From positions 1 to 45,134 of the forward strand of contig JANYLN010000048.1 of assembly GCA_025357795.1 (NCBI GenBank): a stretch of DNA of 45,134 bases. Reading direction: 5' to 3'. The position numbers and the translations under genes were made by a program. Under the pieces are notes generated by a model. The model searched no databases, was not told where the DNA came from, and saw only the letters and a program-made list of their open reading frames with translations. This DNA is from Planctomycetota bacterium. Its GTDB lineage: Bacteria; Planctomycetota; Phycisphaerae; UBA1845; JANYLN01. This document shows positions 3,746 to 41,030 of the stretch, piece by piece; position 1 is the stretch's first letter, and each line of letters opens with the position of its first letter.

Positions 3746-3830
3746 CTTGGCACCCGCGCCGTATCTTTGTTTGACGAAAGGCTGTTCGAGTTCCCGCTTC
3801 AGCGGGGCCGTGGCTGTAACCGTTGTTGTT
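3746..3830 (+). repeat. dispersed repeat family R2, copy 1
   Basis: cttggcacccgcgccgtatctttgtttgacgaaaggctgttcgagttcccgcttcagcggggccgtggctgt is nearly identical to 13037-13117. Confidence 0.85.
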
Positions 3831-10299: not shown

Positions 10300-10746
10300 A
10301 TGCAGACACTGCAGGCAACGCTATCTCTGGTAGGCCGCATCCTCCTCGCGGCCATCTTCGTCATCTCCGGCATAGGCAAGGTCATAGCCGCCGAAGGAAC
10401 CCAGCAGCACATGGGCGCCGCCGGCCTCCCCCTCGTGCCCGTACTCTACGTCCTGACGGTCATCGTCGAGATAGGAGGCGGCCTCATGATCGTACTAGGC
10501 TGGAACGCCCGCATCGCCGCCGTCATTGTCTTCCTGTTCCTGATCCCCGTGACCCTTACGTTCCACACCCACTGGGAAACCCCCGACCAGAAAATGATGC
10601 AGCTGGGCCAGCTCTACAAGAACCTCTCAATCATGGGCGGCCTGCTGCTGCTCGTCGCCTTCGGCCCCGGCCCCCTCAGCGTGGATGGCCAAGCCCCCCG
10701 CATCACCCGCGCCGAGCGACGCGAACAAACTCGCCCCCACATTTAG
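10300..10746 (+). CDS. DoxX family membrane protein
   Basis: LLAAIFVISGIGKVIAAEGT...LYVLTVIVEIGGGLMIVLGWNARIAAVIVFLFLIPVTLTFH; SD aaggaga upstream. Confidence 0.85.
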   Translation: MQTLQATLSLVGRILLAAIFVISGIGKVIAAEGTQQHMGAAGLPLVPVLYVLTVIVEIGGGLMIVLGWNARIAAVIVFLFLIPVTLTFHTHWETPDQKMMQLGQLYKNLSIMGGLLLLVAFGPGPLSVDGQAPRITRAERREQTRPHI

Positions 10747-10775
10747 CCGGCCCGCTCGCGGGCCGCGTGTTCGCC
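10741..10775 (+). repeat. hairpin repeat family R4, copy 1 (contains doxX stop codon)
   Basis: atttagccggcccgctcgcgggccgcgtgtt matches the reverse complement of 40944-40974; CGGCCCGC TC GCGGGCCG hairpin at 10748-10765. Confidence 0.75.
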
Positions 10776-13036: not shown

Positions 13037-13117
13037 CTTGGCGCCCGCGCCGTGTCTTTGTTTGACGAAGGACTGTTCGAGTTCCCGCTTCAGCGGGTCC
13101 GTGGCTGTTGTCGTTGC
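13037..13117 (+). repeat. dispersed repeat family R2, copy 2
   Basis: cttggcgcccgcgccgtgtctttgtttgacgaaggactgttcgagttcccgcttcagcgggtccgtggctgtt; begins about 17 bp after the preceding stop. Confidence 0.85.
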
Positions 13118-15845: not shown

Positions 15846-15931
15846 CGGGCGTATGCCGGCGGAGTCATCTGTGCGTGGACCCTTCCCAGCCCGCCGCGTC
15901 AGCACGGCTGTCTTCGCCGTTAGGTCAGATT

Positions 15932-16031
15932 CAGTTTGTGTGTAGCGCCAGGCATTTGGGTGCCATGGTCCTGCGCCGTTGCAGGACCATGCTGTCGCTC
16001 CCGCTAGAGATAATCTGAAAACGCTCTGGCC
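15932..16031 (+). repeat. ~100-bp dispersed repeat family R3, copy 1, with hairpin
   Basis: Matches 19501-19600; CATGGTCCTGC gccgtt GCAGGACCATG hairpin at 15964-15991. Confidence 0.88.
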
Positions 16032-19329: not shown

Positions 19330-19500
19330 AATTGACAAGTCTCGCCGCCACGCCAGGCCGCGAGCAACCAAACCTATACAAGCCCGTTTACCAATCGCCG
19401 GCGTGCCCCTCGCACGCCGGCCCCTTTTTGCCGATCCACCCGCCCCAACCGCCAGGCCGCCTCCGGCCTCCCCTTCGCAGTCCAGGCTCTAGATCGGATG

Positions 19501-19600
19501 CCGTTTGTGCGTAGCGTCAGGTATTTGGGTGCCATGGTCCTGCGCCGTTGCAGGACCATGCTGCCGCTCCCGCTAAAGATAATCTGAGAACGCTCTAGCC
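19501..19600 (+). repeat. ~100-bp dispersed repeat family R3, copy 2, with hairpin
   Basis: cgtttgtgcgtagcgtcaggtatttgggtgccatggtcctgcgccgttgcaggaccatgctgccgctcccgctaaagataatctgagaacgctctagcc; hairpin 19533-19560 identical to copy 1. Confidence 0.88.
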
Positions 19601-21033: not shown

Positions 21034-22812
21034 TCAGTCCTTCTGCCCCTTCGCTGCCAGCATCTGCTCCCGGAACGCCACCCACCGTCGCGCCGCCTGG
21101 TCCTTCGCCTGCCCCGTCTCCGCCTGCACGTAGTCGCTGTGCACCGCCATCACCTCAGTATACCGGATGGAGTAATGAGGCTGGTTGCCTGCCAGCAGCC
21201 CCTTGGAAATCTCCCGATCCCGCTTGAGGATCTCCTCCCGCGCCGCCGCCCACTCCCCCGCCGGGATCCGCTCCACCTCGTCCAGGAGTTTCTGGTACTC
21301 CCCCGCCGTCTCCCACCCCGCCCGCGCGTTGACGTGCCAGTGGAACACCCGCTGCAGCTTCTGCACGTGCAGCTCCGTCGCCGGATCGAACTTCAGGCAC
21401 GATCCCACGAAGTAGTTGTCCATCGCGTCCATTTTTCTGTAATCGATCAGCCCCCCCAGCCGGCAGATCTCATACGCCTTGGTCCCCGCGAACGGGAAGA
21501 AGATCGCCCAGCGCATCCGCCCGGGCCGGATCCGCGCGCACAGGTCGATCGTCTCATCCATCATCGCCCGCGTCTCAAAGGGCAGGCCGAACATCACGAA
21601 CGCGCTGCTGTGCAGGTGGTAGGCATCGCACAAGCCGAACGCGTCGATGATCTGCTGATTGCTCATGTGCCGGTCGAGGATCTTGCTCCGCTGCCGAGGC
21701 GAACCGCTCTCCAGCCCGAACTTCACGATCATGCACGGCGCCTCCGACAGCGCCTTCGCCATCGGCTCGGTAAAACTCTGCACGTGCGCGTTGACCACGA
21801 ACGGCGTAGCGATCCCCGCATCGCGGTACGCCTTGCAGAAGTCCACCACGTACTTCTCGTCCAGCGTGAACAGGTCGTCGTCGAAGATGAACATCTGGAT
21901 GTACGGATGGCGATCCTTGAGCGACCGCACCTCCGGGATGATCCGCTTGACCTCGTACCGCCGCAGGTACGCCGCCCGCGTCTGCCCCCCCTCCGCCTGG
22001 TAGCGGTCCGACACCTCGTGGTTCAGGCAATAACTGCACCGGTACGGGCACCCTCGGCTGGTCAGAATGCTCTGCCAGCCGTTCTTCTGCTTGAGCATCG
22101 GCTCCAGATCGAAGATCTCGTAGTCCTCCGCGGGCAGCTGGTTCAGGTCCGGGTACCGCCCCACCGCGTTCCGCCGGTACGTCCCATCCGCCAGCCGGAT
22201 GCAGAAATTCGGCGTCTCCAGCACCGCCGGGTCCTTCCGCTCCAGCCGATCCACCAGCACAGGCAGCGCCTCGTCGCACTCGCCCACCCCGACGTAGTCC
22301 CACACCCCGTACGCCCGCCCATCCTCGAGCACCTGCTGCGTGCGCATGATCGTGTGTACGCCCCCAATGACGATCGGCACCCTCCCAATCTCGCCCGCTC
22401 CCCATCTGGCGGCGCCGTCGGTGGCGCTTTCGCTCCCGACATCAGCACCCAGCCCAGCCCGCCCATCCAGCCCAGCTTTACGCTGCCACCGCGTGGCCCA
22501 GACCTGTTCAGTGGCGCCGTTGGTGGCATACCCGCCGGCTCCAGTTTCCTGGCCGCCGCCCCGGATCGCCCGCGCCAGTTCCAGCGCATACCGATACTGC
22601 TGGCTCATCACACTGAAGGCAATCAGGTCAGGCCGCAACTCGCCAATGCGTCCGATAATCTCCTCTTGGCTCGGTACAGGCCCGAACGCCTCGTTGATGT
22701 TCATCAGGCTCGTGCGATGCCCCCGCGCCTTGAGTGCCCCCGACAGGCAGGCGATCCCGTGACTGAAACCCTCTTCTGCATTGAGGTTAGGCCAGATGAA
22801 CAGTACGTGCAT
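21034..22812 (-). CDS. B12-binding domain radical SAM protein carrying an in-frame repeat-derived insertion
   Basis: MHVLFIWPNLNAEEGFSHGIACLSGALKARGHRTSL; ILTSRGCPYRCSYCLNHEV (CxxxCxxC); VPIVIGGVHTIMRTQQVLED. Insertion QETGAGGYATNGATEQVWATRWQRKAGLDGRAGLG... at 22391-22544. Confidence 0.9.
   Translation of the reverse strand: MHVLFIWPNLNAEEGFSHGIACLSGALKARGHRTSLMNINEAFGPVPSQEEIIGRIGELRPDLIAFSVMSQQYRYALELARAIRGGGQETGAGGYATNGATEQVWATRWQRKAGLDGRAGLGADVGSESATDGAARWGAGEIGRVPIVIGGVHTIMRTQQVLEDGRAYGVWDYVGVGECDEALPVLVDRLERKDPAVLETPNFCIRLADGTYRRNAVGRYPDLNQLPAEDYEIFDLEPMLKQKNGWQSILTSRGCPYRCSYCLNHEVSDRYQAEGGQTRAAYLRRYEVKRIIPEVRSLKDRHPYIQMFIFDDDLFTLDEKYVVDFCKAYRDAGIATPFVVNAHVQSFTEPMAKALSEAPCMIVKFGLESGSPRQRSKILDRHMSNQQIIDAFGLCDAYHLHSSAFVMFGLPFETRAMMDETIDLCARIRPGRMRWAIFFPFAGTKAYEICRLGGLIDYRKMDAMDNYFVGSCLKFDPATELHVQKLQRVFHWHVNARAGWETAGEYQKLLDEVERIPAGEWAAAREEILKRDREISKGLLAGNQPHYSIRYTEVMAVHSDYVQAETGQAKDQAARRWVAFREQMLAAKGQKD
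22391..22544 (-). repeat. dispersed repeat family R1, copy inside radical SAM CDS
   Basis: Minus strand: ctggagccggcgggtatgccaccaacggcgccactgaacaggtctgggccacgcggtggcagcgtaaagctgggctggatgggcgggctgggctgggtgctgatgtcgggagcgaaagcgcc; matches 25001-25349 and 40362-40450. Confidence 0.88.
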
Positions 22813-22991: not shown

Positions 22992-24725
22992 ATGTTTATA
23001 AGACAGCCGAATCGAATCAGACCCATGACGCTAAACCTCCTTGGCATCGGGACTTGTCGAGCCGCACTCGCTGTCGTCCTGCTCCTGGCCGCTCAGGCCG
23101 TCACAGACGCCCAGGTCCGTCAGGTCCAGACCGGCAACGCCCTCGATGCCAACCCCCAGATAGGCAGCGGCGGCTACAACACCGTCCGTCCCGTCACCAG
23201 CGGCCTCAACGGCAACCTGATCATGTCCGGTAATGTCACCGCTGGCCGGTCGTTCCAGGGCTTTAGCCCCATCTCCAACCCCAGTACCCTGCAAACGACC
23301 ATCCCCAGCGCAAACCTCTCGAACTTCATCCGCGACTCCGTCGGCCTCCAGTCCATCCAGAGCGGCCTGTCGACCTACAGTCCCAGGCCCTACTTCGATC
23401 CCTCCCAGACCGCCATAACCACCGGCGCCATCGAAAGCTTATCCCTTTTGCCACGGGACCTTAACGGTTCCTACCGCGCAAGCCAGTACCAGTACCAACT
23501 GCCCGTGGCCCCCCTCAGTTCCATCCAGCGGATAGGCCAGGCCCTCCCGACCGGCCTGCCCTACGCCGCCCCGGGTTGGGAACCCGCCGGCATCGGGATG
23601 TTCAACCCCGAACTGCTGGCGACCAGCCCAGGCCAGATCAGCCGCAACCCCCTTACCCCGTACTCAGTTAGAACGCGGCTGGAAGGCACCGAGTCTGGCC
23701 GTGACACTACCCAGGCAGGCCAGCAGGTCGACCCGGGCGAGCGCCTGGCCCAGCCCGGTACACTCCGCCTGCCCGATCTAGGCACCCTGCCCGACGCGCA
23801 GCCGGCCCAGCCGAACGAGACAACGCCCGAAACCGCGGGCCAGCCTCAAATTGCGCAGATCACTCGCTCCCTCAGGCCCAACACAGGCCGACAGCCAACA
23901 GGCGGCCCGATGAACCAACCCGCCCAGCAGGCAGCCGATCAGACCGGCTCCAGCCTGCTGACCCAGATGCAACGGTACTCTGGCGCCCAGCAGTCAGCCG
24001 TCTCCGGCACCGAGCCCCAGCAGCAACCCCAGGGCAAGCCCCTGACTCAACCCCAGCAGCAGCCGCTCGACCTCAGCGTCGCTACCGCAGGCCAGCGCCC
24101 GACCGACGAGATACGTCTTATAAAACCAGGCGCAACCCCCCTGCAACGTGAACAACTCCGCGCGGACATAGGCCGCGAGCAGGCCTCTCGCCTCGTCGAG
24201 CAGCGCCTCCGCATGCCCATCCGCTCCCTGGCCGGCGCCCGCCAGACCCAGGCCGACCAGCTGCTCGCCCAGGCCGAAGACCTCATGCGTAAGGGCGATT
24301 ACTACCGCGCCTCCGAAACCTACAACGGCGTGATCACCGCCGCCCCGGATAACGCCCTCGCCTGGCTGGGCCGGGCCAACGCCCTCCTCGCCGCAGGCGA
24401 GTACCTCCGGGCCTACGTGGCCCTGGACCGCGGCATCAGCCGATTCCCACAGATCTTACAGTTCGACTACGACCTGCCGGCCCTCATCGGCAACAAGGAC
24501 ATCCTGGACGTCCGCCGCGCCGAACTCGAGAAGATCCTGGCCGCCAACCCCGATCACCGCCTCCGCTTCCTTCTGGGCTACCTCGAGTACTACAGCGGTC
24601 CGCGCGACGTCGGCCTGCAGACCATCCAGCAGGCCGCCCAGGCCGCCCCAGCCGACACCACGATCGGCCAGGCCTACCAGATCCTCAAGCAGCGCAGCGC
24701 CGCAAGCCAACCAGCGAGGCCATAA
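22992..24725 (+). CDS. secreted TPR-containing hypothetical protein, Gln/Pro-rich
   Basis: Signal-like LLGIGTCRAALAVVLLLAAQAVTDA; C-terminal TPR-like QLLAQAEDLMRKGDYYRASETYNGVITAAPDNALAWLGRANALLAAGEYLRAYVALD. Start could be the ATG at 23025. Confidence 0.72.
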   Translation: MFIRQPNRIRPMTLNLLGIGTCRAALAVVLLLAAQAVTDAQVRQVQTGNALDANPQIGSGGYNTVRPVTSGLNGNLIMSGNVTAGRSFQGFSPISNPSTLQTTIPSANLSNFIRDSVGLQSIQSGLSTYSPRPYFDPSQTAITTGAIESLSLLPRDLNGSYRASQYQYQLPVAPLSSIQRIGQALPTGLPYAAPGWEPAGIGMFNPELLATSPGQISRNPLTPYSVRTRLEGTESGRDTTQAGQQVDPGERLAQPGTLRLPDLGTLPDAQPAQPNETTPETAGQPQIAQITRSLRPNTGRQPTGGPMNQPAQQAADQTGSSLLTQMQRYSGAQQSAVSGTEPQQQPQGKPLTQPQQQPLDLSVATAGQRPTDEIRLIKPGATPLQREQLRADIGREQASRLVEQRLRMPIRSLAGARQTQADQLLAQAEDLMRKGDYYRASETYNGVITAAPDNALAWLGRANALLAAGEYLRAYVALDRGISRFPQILQFDYDLPALIGNKDILDVRRAELEKILAANPDHRLRFLLGYLEYYSGPRDVGLQTIQQAAQAAPADTTIGQAYQILKQRSAASQPARP

Positions 24726-24767
24726 ACCTTTAGGCACGAATTCCTGGGGGGGGAGGGAGAACCGATC

Positions 24768-24893
24768 GTGACTTCCAAACAGCGTCTGTTGGCCGTTCTG
24801 CGGGGCGAACGGCCGGACCGTGTGCCCGTCAGCACCTACGAACTCAACGCCCACCATCCCGACCACTTCGAAAACCGCGAACCGTCCTATAAC
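24768..24893 (+). pseudogene. N-terminal remnant of a uroporphyrinogen decarboxylase (URO-D/MtaA-like) family gene
   Basis: MTSKQRLLAVLRGERPDRVPVSTYELNAHHPDHFENREPSYN resembles URO-D-family N-termini, then loses resemblance and runs into repeat sequence. Confidence 0.65.
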
Positions 24894-25000
24894 CGTCAAC
24901 GTCCCGCTCACCCCCCAAACCGAAGCGAACTACCTAGCTACAGAAATTTGCAAGCCATCGCCCAAAACACCGGGAGCCGGAGCGGTCTTTCGGACAGCCA

Positions 25001-25349
25001 GTGGGTGCCACCAACGGCGCCACTAAACAGGTCTGGGCCAAGCGGTCGCAGCGTGAAGCTGGGCTGGATGCGGGATCTGGGCGGGAGCGATGAGGTGAAT
25101 TCCGGACACGGGGTGGGTGCCACCAACGGCGCCACTAAACGGGTCTGGGCCACGCGGTGGCAGCGTGAAGCTGGGCGGGATGGGCGAGCTGGGCTGGGTG
25201 CAGATGCCGGGGCGAAAGCGCCACTTCCGGCGCCACTCGACGGCCGCGAGGCGGTGCCGGGCTGACGGTGGGCGGGTGGTAACTGACCGGGGAGCGGGAA
25301 TTCGGATACGAGGCGGGTGCCACTAACGGCGCCACTGAACCGCTAACAA
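25001..25349 (+). repeat. cluster of three partial/complete R1 units
   Basis: gtgggtgccaccaacggcgccactaaac at 25001 and 25113; gcgggtgccactaacggcgccactgaac at about 25313; shared downstream gtctgggcca..cggt.gcagcgtgaagctggg and upstream gaattc.gga.acg. Confidence 0.88.
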
Positions 25350-25633
25350 GGCGACCAACCACGCCAGACAAGGATGCGGGGAGAAACGGACACAAGGGGA
25401 CAGAAATGGCGATGGTCGAACGGTTTAGGAGACGGTCAGGGCGCAGCCGGGAGGTATGGTCGACGGGATGGCGGGGGGCCGGAATGGCTATAACACTATA
25501 ATGCGAGGAACGGCCGCCTGTTCTGTTGGCGTCTTCCGGATTACGCCAAAGGAGATGGTGTTTCCGGTTATTTCACAAATATCATATTATTGTCCCTGGC
25601 TAGTCCCCGTTATTCCGGATAGGAGTTCATGCC

Positions 25634-26116
25634 ATGACAACGATTGACCCCATGACCATCGTCAACAATGCTGTCACCAAAGGCGAACTGGACAAGCTTC
25701 TTTTGGGAGCGCCTGAGTACTGCTACCGCTCGCGTATGTCGCCTGCGCCCGGAAATACCGATCTGACGGAATTGCTAGATGTGCTTTACGAGCGATGGAA
25801 CCCCACAGACAGGGAAAGAGTGCGGGACGACTTGGTAAAGGCCCTGTATGCGATTGTTGAAACGTATGAAGGGCTAGGACCGGTTGCGACGTGCGTTCTC
25901 ATCGAGTCGTCGTGCAGGGCGGAAAACAGCCCAATGTTGGGCTTGCCACTGGACGATCTTGCCAACAAGCTACGCAGCGGAATCGAGCGGTTCCGCTCTC
26001 GCCTTGAGAAAGATAAGACCGGCGAAGGCAGTGAATGGCCGGATGGTCGGTTGGGCGAGTTCCGGCGGCTAAGTCGAATTACGGTAGAGCTTGGCGGGCC
26101 GTCATTCTGCGAATGA
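25634..26116 (+). CDS. hypothetical protein
   Basis: 160-codon ORF preceded by taggag; codon usage less GC-extreme than neighbours. Confidence 0.5.
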   Translation: MTTIDPMTIVNNAVTKGELDKLLLGAPEYCYRSRMSPAPGNTDLTELLDVLYERWNPTDRERVRDDLVKALYAIVETYEGLGPVATCVLIESSCRAENSPMLGLPLDDLANKLRSGIERFRSRLEKDKTGEGSEWPDGRLGEFRRLSRITVELGGPSFCE

Positions 26117-26275
26117 CGTGATTCCGGCAACGAGTGATGACCCCGAATCTTTCAGGCGTGAATCCGCCATTCTGAGGTACAAGACATGAAGACGAAGCCA
26201 GACTTTTTTTTGTCCGCAGGCGGCGAGGTTACGGGAGACCTAGCTACCCCGCGCGCCTGCTGGACAAGAGGCCGC

Positions 26276-26584
26276 ATGAATGACCAGATTCGTGACGATC
26301 ACATGCTGATCGAGGTTGAACCGCCAATCATTGGGCAGACCTACGGGCTTGGCGGGCGGGACATCACGAATCTGATTCTTTCCGCGCGTCATCAGGGCGA
26401 TACGCTTTTTCCAATCAAGGAATGGCCTTGCCACGTCTACGTTGCCCGAATATTGGACGACAGCATTATGAAGACGCTGATCTTCACAAAAGAGCAGGTG
26501 GAAGTAATCGCTTGGGGCATGATCTTCCCCACCGTTGAAGAAGCGAATGCCCTAGCGAAGGAATCCGTTAGAAATGTCACCTGA
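26276..26584 (+). CDS. hypothetical protein
   Basis: ORF MNDQIRDDHMLIEVEPPIIGQTYGLGGRDITNLILSARHQGDTLFPIKEWPCHVYVARIL...; ORF track extends to 26186. Confidence 0.5.
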   Translation: MNDQIRDDHMLIEVEPPIIGQTYGLGGRDITNLILSARHQGDTLFPIKEWPCHVYVARILDDSIMKTLIFTKEQVEVIAWGMIFPTVEEANALAKESVRNVT

Positions 26585-39513: not shown

Positions 39514-40207
39514 GGATGTCTACCTCTGGTCTGACACGTAAGGTTTTGCTGGCCAATGCTTTTCGAAACTGGCTGGCCAGCAGGGGTCTTCCGTGCGGCC
39601 AGTTAAGTATTATAGCCTGCAAGGTGTTGGGTCAGCCACACAATGAGGGCGGGCTGTGGCTGGTGCTGTCCAGCCGGGGGGGGTAAATCGGGGATCAGTT
39701 GGACGGAGCAGCCTACCAGGACGATCGAGCCGAGGTTCTCCTGGACTGCGCCGCGGACGAGGTAGGGACCGAAGCGGCCGAAGGTACCGCCCAGTTGCTT
39801 GTAAACGTCCGGGAAAAGCACGACTTCCACCAAGCCCCAGCGGTCCTCCAGGGTGATGAATTGCATCATATCTCGTTGGCGGGTAACGGCTTTGCGCGTC
39901 GCCACGATGATACCGGCGACGAACACCTGGCGACCGATAAAACCTGCCAAATCGATACTACGGACGATATCCTGGCCTGCGAGGGTGTCGGCCAGGATCG
40001 CCAGCGGGTGATTGGCTGGCGAGAACGTCAGGTACTGCCGCTCGAGTTCCCTGAGGCGGGCGGTCTGAAGGCGGATCGAGAGTTGCCAAAGCATGGCTGG
40101 GCGGCTGGGCCCGAGGCCGTCGCATGCCCCGGAGAAGATCAGCGCGCGGGCCTCCTCGCTGGACATGCGGACGCGGCCAAGCGGTCCGATAAGCTGGAAA
40201 AATGCCA

Positions 40208-40223
40208 CAAGTGGCGCCACTTG
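40208..40223. repeat. 16-bp perfect palindrome at the second dnaE frame break
   Basis: CAAGTGGCGCCACTTG; flank ggcgccacttgacggtcgcg resembles ggcgccactcgacggccgcg at about 25229-25248. Confidence 0.7.
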
Positions 40224-40361
40224 ACGGTCGCGGACGTGTTCTGGGCCGATGCCGGGCGGTCCTGGACGATCGCGAGGGCGGTCTTTTCCGAGAGGTTGCG
40301 GATCTGGCGGAGGGCCACGCGGATGCCGATGCAGCGAAGGGCTGGAACGGCGGCGGGTTCT

Positions 40362-40450
40362 GGAGCCGGCGGGTATGCCACCAACGGCGCCCGTGAAGAG
40401 GTTCCGGCCAGTTGACCGCCGCGTGAAGCTGGGCTGGATGGGGGAACTGG
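40362..40450 (+). repeat. dispersed repeat family R1, copy in dnaE remnant (antisense to dnaE)
   Basis: ctggagccggcgggtatgccaccaacggcgcc is identical for about 32 nt to the radical SAM copy; gcgtgaagctgggctggatggg also shared. Confidence 0.88.
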
Positions 40451-40943
40451 GCAGCGCTGGGCAATGACTCGCTGAACGGCGCTGGAGGGCCTGCTCGTAG
40501 AAGGCGACGGCGCCGTAGAGGTTGTCATAGTCGGCCAGGCAGACGGAGGACAATGTCGATCGGCGGGTCCAATCGAAGAGCGCGTCCGGGCGGATGAGTC
40601 CACAGCCTAGCGACCAGCCACTACATGCGCGTACGAACATCTGCCCTTCTCCACGAGCCGGCCAAGGGAGCGTCCGAATCCGCTTGTACGGTCTACTTAC
40701 GAATGCCCGACAGCCGTCATCTTGCGCCGGCAAGAGGTGTTTGGTATACGTTAGGGTATCGACTGGATCGGGGAATTTCAAGAGGAAAACGGGGGGATGG
40801 GGCTGGAACAGTCGTAGCACAACAGAAACAACAAGCACAACAACAGCAAGAGCAGCCACCGATGAGACAAAGGGCACGGGAACGGCAGTAACCACAACAA
40901 CGCCACGGATTTACACGGATAACAACGGCAACGGCAACGGCAA

Positions 40944-40974
40944 AAACACGCGGCTCGCAAGCGAGCCGGCTAAA
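40944..40974 (-). repeat. hairpin repeat family R4, copy 2
   Basis: aaacacgcggctcgcaagcgagccggctaaat; CGGCTCGC AA GCGAGCCG hairpin at 40951-40968. Confidence 0.75.
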
Positions 40975-41030
40975 TGGGGGAGGCAGAAAAGGTACCTGAC
41001 ACCTTTTCTGTTTCGGCACACCATGAAAAG

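Follow-up and report, generated by a model that had tools for sequence, protein, structure and literature searches.

The stretch of DNA analysed here (the window, 45,134 nucleotides) is a single contig, JANYLN010000048.1, of a fragmented, apparently metagenome-assembled Planctomycetota genome (3.54 Mb in 338 contigs, 87.9% complete; the window is our contig C302), and on its minus strand, at positions 21034 to 22812, it carries a gene for a radical SAM/B12-binding protein that hosts an in-frame copy of a dispersed repeat. The gene is open throughout (592 amino acids), and Pfam assigns both a B12-binding and a Radical_SAM domain to the product, which retains an undamaged CxxxCxxC radical SAM motif. 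The closest homologues come from Phycisphaerae and Planctomycetota metagenome-assembled genomes. Five of them, 63-66% identical to the window protein, align over its full length without one block: 63 residues separate LAR from VPIVIGG in the window protein and 8 do so in these homologues, and the net insert is therefore 55 amino acids.

Judged by BLAST against the other genomic copies, the repeat-derived DNA covers positions 22390 to 22557 (minus strand, amino acids 86-141). An earlier note on this DNA, which had proposed a dispersed repeat of about 55 extra residues in the B12 domain and suggested aligning the protein to its homologues, was right about the repeat, its size and its location, and the block is absent from all five homologues; the exact ends it gave (22391-22544) did not stand, as BLAST coverage is slightly longer. 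Its further statements, that the frame is kept through the whole gene and that the block matches copies elsewhere in the window, agree with the 592 intact codons and with the copies found at 24973-25340 (three cores) and 40343-40455. Within the insert, an 18-bp core, TGCCACCAACGGCGCCAC (22511-22528, minus strand), reads A-T-N-G-A-T in the radical SAM gene, and a right-hand module, GCGAAAGCGCCACCGACGGCGCC (22411-22433, minus strand), resembles this left core, GCCAC..CGGCGCC being common to both; ATNGATEQVWATR is a segment of the peptide encoded by the repeat. AlphaFold places its lowest confidence for the window protein at the insert (about residues 87-137), which, in a mediocre prediction from six sequences with an overall pLDDT of 60.5, lends weak support to the insert being a disordered loop.

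With at most two mismatches allowed, the core pattern TGCCACYAACGGCGCCAC matches the genome 131 times and a reversed-pattern control once, and chance is therefore excluded; a genome search with the insert block as query gave 58 scored matches. The genome-wide count suggested in the earlier note thus yields an abundant repeat, with copies in at least eight conserved genes. Units are modular, about 40-170 bp in length, and contain the 18-bp core; they occur as short units, as units of ~110-170 bp with a second, similar end module, and in tandem arrays that repeat every 112 bp. The end modules stand in direct, not inverted, orientation. A palindromic or RNA-structured element was considered and rejected, given that the repeat folds no better than shuffles (z-scores of -0.21, 1.47 and -0.05; both strands), and a repeat search at 30 nt or longer found no inverted-repeat pairing inside a copy. 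A longer, 23-mer core occurs 97 times in this genome and in 0 of the 396 other genomes of the class that formed the comparison set; it has no match in IMG/VR, and the repeat consensus has none in the plasmid or phage records searched.

The comparisons concern this single fragmented genome and are made at the level of homologues, the genome being the sole sampled member of its family and its nearest relatives sharing only the order. With one genome for the family the insertions cannot be dated, which leaves some room for an old, lineage-typical protein extension unrelated to mobility. This account is nonetheless scarcely credible: the same DNA stands in unrelated genes, in both orientations and five frames, and also between genes. 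Nor did the case arise that the earlier note had named as refuting its claim, as the homologues lack the block and matching repeats abound elsewhere in the genome.

Read-through open reading frames (ORFs) were identified by codon-usage scoring of the flanks and ORF reconstruction, their hosts were named by Pfam, and insert lengths were judged against the homologues of related genomes within the order. About 20 ORFs read through a repeat copy, and Pfam assigns most of them to conserved families. In-frame insertions are verified against homologues in eight conserved genes, the radical SAM gene included; the other seven encode IspA (~37 amino acids), ProS (~74), GGT (~66), an ActB-like protein (~17), a DUF3179 protein (~50), and MurF (~22-26) and SelA (~40), the last two figures being alignment-dependent as they fall in variable regions. 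In each verified gene the block that homologues lack coincides with repeat-derived DNA. Another dozen ORFs also contain copies. In-frame copies for which a length difference is not verified lie in ZnuA, ChbG/YdjC, a YhdP/AsmA-like protein, a LysM protein, one unnamed ORF, the C-terminal tail of DnaK, and the N-terminal regions of ScpB, DinB and PheS. Two ORFs, that of ScpB (locus L072) and one at locus L049, contain two cores each, both readable in frame.

These genes also bear on whether the repeat was misplaced into coding sequence during assembly. The 338 contigs and 87.9% completeness, repeats at several contig ends, and an abrupt change of GC skew at the 25-kb array in the window would all fit such an artefact, but on at least eight independent contigs the frame and the two-sided homology are kept around inserts that differ in length and frame. 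Because frame-preserving inserts recur on independent contigs, an assembly error at the radical SAM locus, which the earlier note had raised against its own claim, is insufficient as an explanation, and we regard misassembly in general as very improbable.

The repeat is read in five of its six frames, which give ATNGAT, LPPTAP, VAPLVA, GAVGG and WRRWW, and in both orientations; the sixth frame contains a TGA stop. The idea that the repeat is unusually free of stops was rejected, as four or more frames are open in 38% of dinucleotide shuffles of the consensus. It is the GC-rich composition that keeps four to five of the six frames open, so that an insert made up of whole codons can often be translated. 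Of the 15 copies flanked on both sides by coding signal on one strand, 13 stay in phase (P = 3e-5 against an expectation of 1/3), and the two that do not lie, by inspection, near gene ends.

Such phase retention argues for translation over removal at the RNA level. Post-transcriptional removal, intron-like or by translational bypass, would leave a normal protein, and it draws on the nature of the hosts, which are conserved and normally essential genes, and on the group II intron 3' ends that adjoin many repeat arrays. RNA-level removal would not require phase, however, and yet 13 of the 15 copies with two coding flanks keep it; the repeat has no fold beyond that of shuffles, and lengths and ends vary among copies. 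Also, the Rfam group II matches adjoin some arrays (loci L009 and L027) and none falls in the copy of the window gene, the insert of which lacks the conserved group II catalytic domain. We therefore consider removal improbable. As a separate observation on these introns, made at loci L009, L022, L027 and L168-L179, 10 of 12 copies of group II domain 5 (D5) lie directly downstream of the repeat array, with a CTGGGCTGG-like stretch at the junction, and the remaining two (contigs C133 and C221) retain ORF-like sequence upstream of D5.

In copies located through a separate 20-mer from the centre of the repeat, the core differs from its consensus at 1.1% of positions, compared with 12-27% for neighbouring stretches. 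Most of the stretches examined had been retrieved via the core; the central 20-mer, searched independently across the genome, gave 80 sites, and the exact core is present at 68 of the 78 that could be scored, six more representing one CCCG subfamily. Once repeats were masked, 72 of 82 loci had the core on the strand that is G-rich locally (P = 1e-12), the G-rich strand serving only as a proxy for replication direction. Genes around the core loci are split 39/41 in orientation, and the same skew is seen at the third codon positions of genes on either strand. The 21 intragenic loci listed all have the core on the G-rich strand whatever the orientation of the gene. That the orientation follows from the core's own composition was rejected, as GCCACC is on the G-rich strand in just 24% of cases. 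Taken together, the invariant core and the fixed orientation suggest a recognised, polar element.

The same features could belong to a polar DNA site with a function of its own, comparable to uptake, segregation or recombination sites, which selection would maintain and which biased gene conversion or transformation would spread; cores within genes would then have arisen or been converted in situ, and the long inserts would be secondary. A core about tenfold more conserved than its flanks, the strong strand polarity, and solo cores at unchanged length in the genes for a HEAT protein, SucA, a GT2 enzyme and a lyase-like protein all fit this proposal. It leaves unaccounted for the repeat-derived insertions of 17-74 amino acids at eight genes, the 112-bp tandem arrays and the spread of long flanking sequence, and we consider it the less likely account, though one with a real share of the probability.

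We favour, with a probability of about 0.72, a lineage-specific, non-autonomous mobile repeat, the insertion of which is probably fork-polar and which is tolerated as a translated surface loop. The repeat has spread through the planctomycete genome and lies also within genes; its identity, its insertion relative to homologues, the retained frame and the use of five frames and both orientations are shown by the sequence comparisons. Selection would then leave those insertions that fall in permissive loops or tails, where translation would turn them into an additional surface segment. Enzyme-recognised, fork-coupled insertion is suggested by the near-invariant core together with the fixed orientation on the G-rich strand: a putative trans-acting enzyme may recognise the core and, in the manner of IS200/IS605 transposases, insert single strands of DNA at replication forks. 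The mobilising enzyme, the translation and the coupling to forks are what we infer here from genomic patterns. A bolder statement, that this is an undescribed class of non-palindromic, replication-polar repeat, in which a candidate enzyme recognises the 18-bp core and the repeat time and again writes new peptide segments, in five frames, into essential planctomycete proteins, sometimes replacing sequence, is a possibility that we hold only tentatively.

Several points weigh against a translated, fork-polar mobile repeat. The core is present in the HEAT, SucA, family-2 glycosyltransferase and rhamnogalacturonan-lyase-like proteins with no clear change in length, and simple insertion does not account for these four. 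Many ordinary G-rich words are themselves found on the G-rich strand in 75-88% of cases, and the orientation bias may in part reflect a preference for G-rich targets; replication-coupled single-strand insertion would by analogy give the strand polarity, of which a G-rich target preference would give part. That the insert is translated into peptide is a prediction from the DNA. No target-site duplication or DNA-level empty site is definable, the nearest homologues being ~65% identical at the protein level. Nor is any transposase or recombinase linked to the repeat: none of the five Y1 transposase genes in the assembly (87.9% complete) adjoins a core or is flanked by cores, and a search of the assembly with PF00078 revealed no reverse transcriptase. 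A composite transposon between divergent arrays was considered as well and rejected, as the DNA between arrays on contigs C85 and C72 consists of unrelated ordinary genes.

The earlier note likened the repeat to Rickettsia palindromic elements (RPEs), and this comparison holds for behaviour and fails for structure. RPEs are dispersed, lineage-restricted repeats of ~100-150 bp found between genes and in frame within many conserved genes (PMC2229807, PMC10969869), in 19 reading frames in the first report (reviewed in PMC2229807), and in-frame insertion into eight conserved genes matches this. RPEs are, however, palindromic with terminal inverted repeats (PMC2229807). The present repeat has neither a palindrome nor terminal inverted repeats; it has no preferred frame, using five frames in both orientations with no conserved peptide per family; its 18-bp core is near-invariant, and its orientation follows the G-rich strand. 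In behaviour it is RPE-like, and its structure does not show it to be an RPE.

In-frame short repeats are already known beyond Rickettsia, namely GTAG/CGTC repetitive extragenic palindromes (REPs), ERIC and Correia elements (PMC3733652, PMC2229807). In-gene GTAG/CGTC REPs occur in several phyla, including Opitutus terrae, a member of the Planctomycetes-Verrucomicrobia-Chlamydiae (PVC) group, and REP clusters within ORFs can encode 43-82 amino acids (PMC3733652). Like these, the present repeat is short, often clustered, partly intragenic and found in the PVC group, but REPs are palindromes of 20-40 bp that carry a GTAG or CGTC tag and often lie near genes for REP-associated tyrosine transposases (RAYTs), whereas the core and consensus here show no tagged palindrome and, in this incomplete assembly, no Y1 transposase stands beside a copy. 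Correia/NEMIS and ERIC, which are miniature inverted-repeat transposable elements, are non-autonomous and capable of in-frame gene fusion (PMC2229807); our repeat would share the non-autonomous character and does lie in frame within genes, but terminal inverted repeats were not found in it. The orientation of IS200/IS605 elements follows replication direction, the lagging-strand template being targeted (PMC5371812). The likeness in strand polarity is an analogy of mechanism only, as the present repeat has no linked transposase or demonstrated terminal hairpin.

DNA uptake sequences, too, have an invariant short core that occurs in and between genes. The present core is likewise far more conserved than its flanks and lies in both settings, but it is carried within long units or inserts and has far fewer copies.

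The open-access literature, which covers part of the field, yielded no description of this repeat for the lineage. In-frame insertion of mobile repeats was first known as a peculiarity of Rickettsia, obligate intracellular parasites, and later surveys found in-gene REPs elsewhere. If our reading is true, the present case, which is independent and non-palindromic and comes from a 3.5-Mb genome of another phylum, would show that new protein segments arise by this route repeatedly; its hosts include normally essential enzymes, prolyl-tRNA synthetase and MurF among them. For the movement of the element, two handles are offered by the strand polarity and the invariant core.

The other copies in the window lie on the plus strand. 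Two tandem non-coding copies with a 112-bp period (24973-25140; cores at 25006-25023 and 25118-25135) are followed by a partial copy (25285-25340; core at 25318-25335). Just upstream of this array, an ORF start at 24768-24900 that by eye resembles the N-terminus of a uroporphyrinogen-decarboxylase/methyltransferase (no Pfam match) is seemingly truncated. A CCCG-subfamily copy (40343-40455) is flanked by pieces of a DNA polymerase III alpha-like gene that has decayed, the remnant of which spans 39603-40895 on the minus strand with repeat copies at its internal junctions. Around this copy, PHP, helix-hairpin-helix and OB-fold pieces (weak domain matches) lie in different frames, and we tentatively read it as a case of frame loss within a decayed gene, in contrast to the intact hosts.

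GC skew is about -0.25 across the first 24 kb of the window, and this strong skew switches abruptly (24000-26500) between the minus-strand core at 22511 and the plus-strand cores from 25006 on. Similar switches occur in contigs C3, C12, C245 and C329, and contigs with two repeat loci mostly have a minus core followed by a plus core. Multiple replication origins were not adopted as an explanation for so many switches, rearrangement or misassembly at repeats being the simplest reading.

The window also contains two other dispersed families, each with two copies at ~90% identity, at 3746-3825 and 13037-13116 and at 15921-16031 and 19490-19600. In addition, a 36-bp pair in inverted orientation (89%; 10736-10771 and 40945-40980) includes the hairpin-like GCCGGCCCGCTCGCGGGCC, and a related motif, GGCTGGCAAGCGAGCCGGCTAAATGGGG, is present at locus L006.
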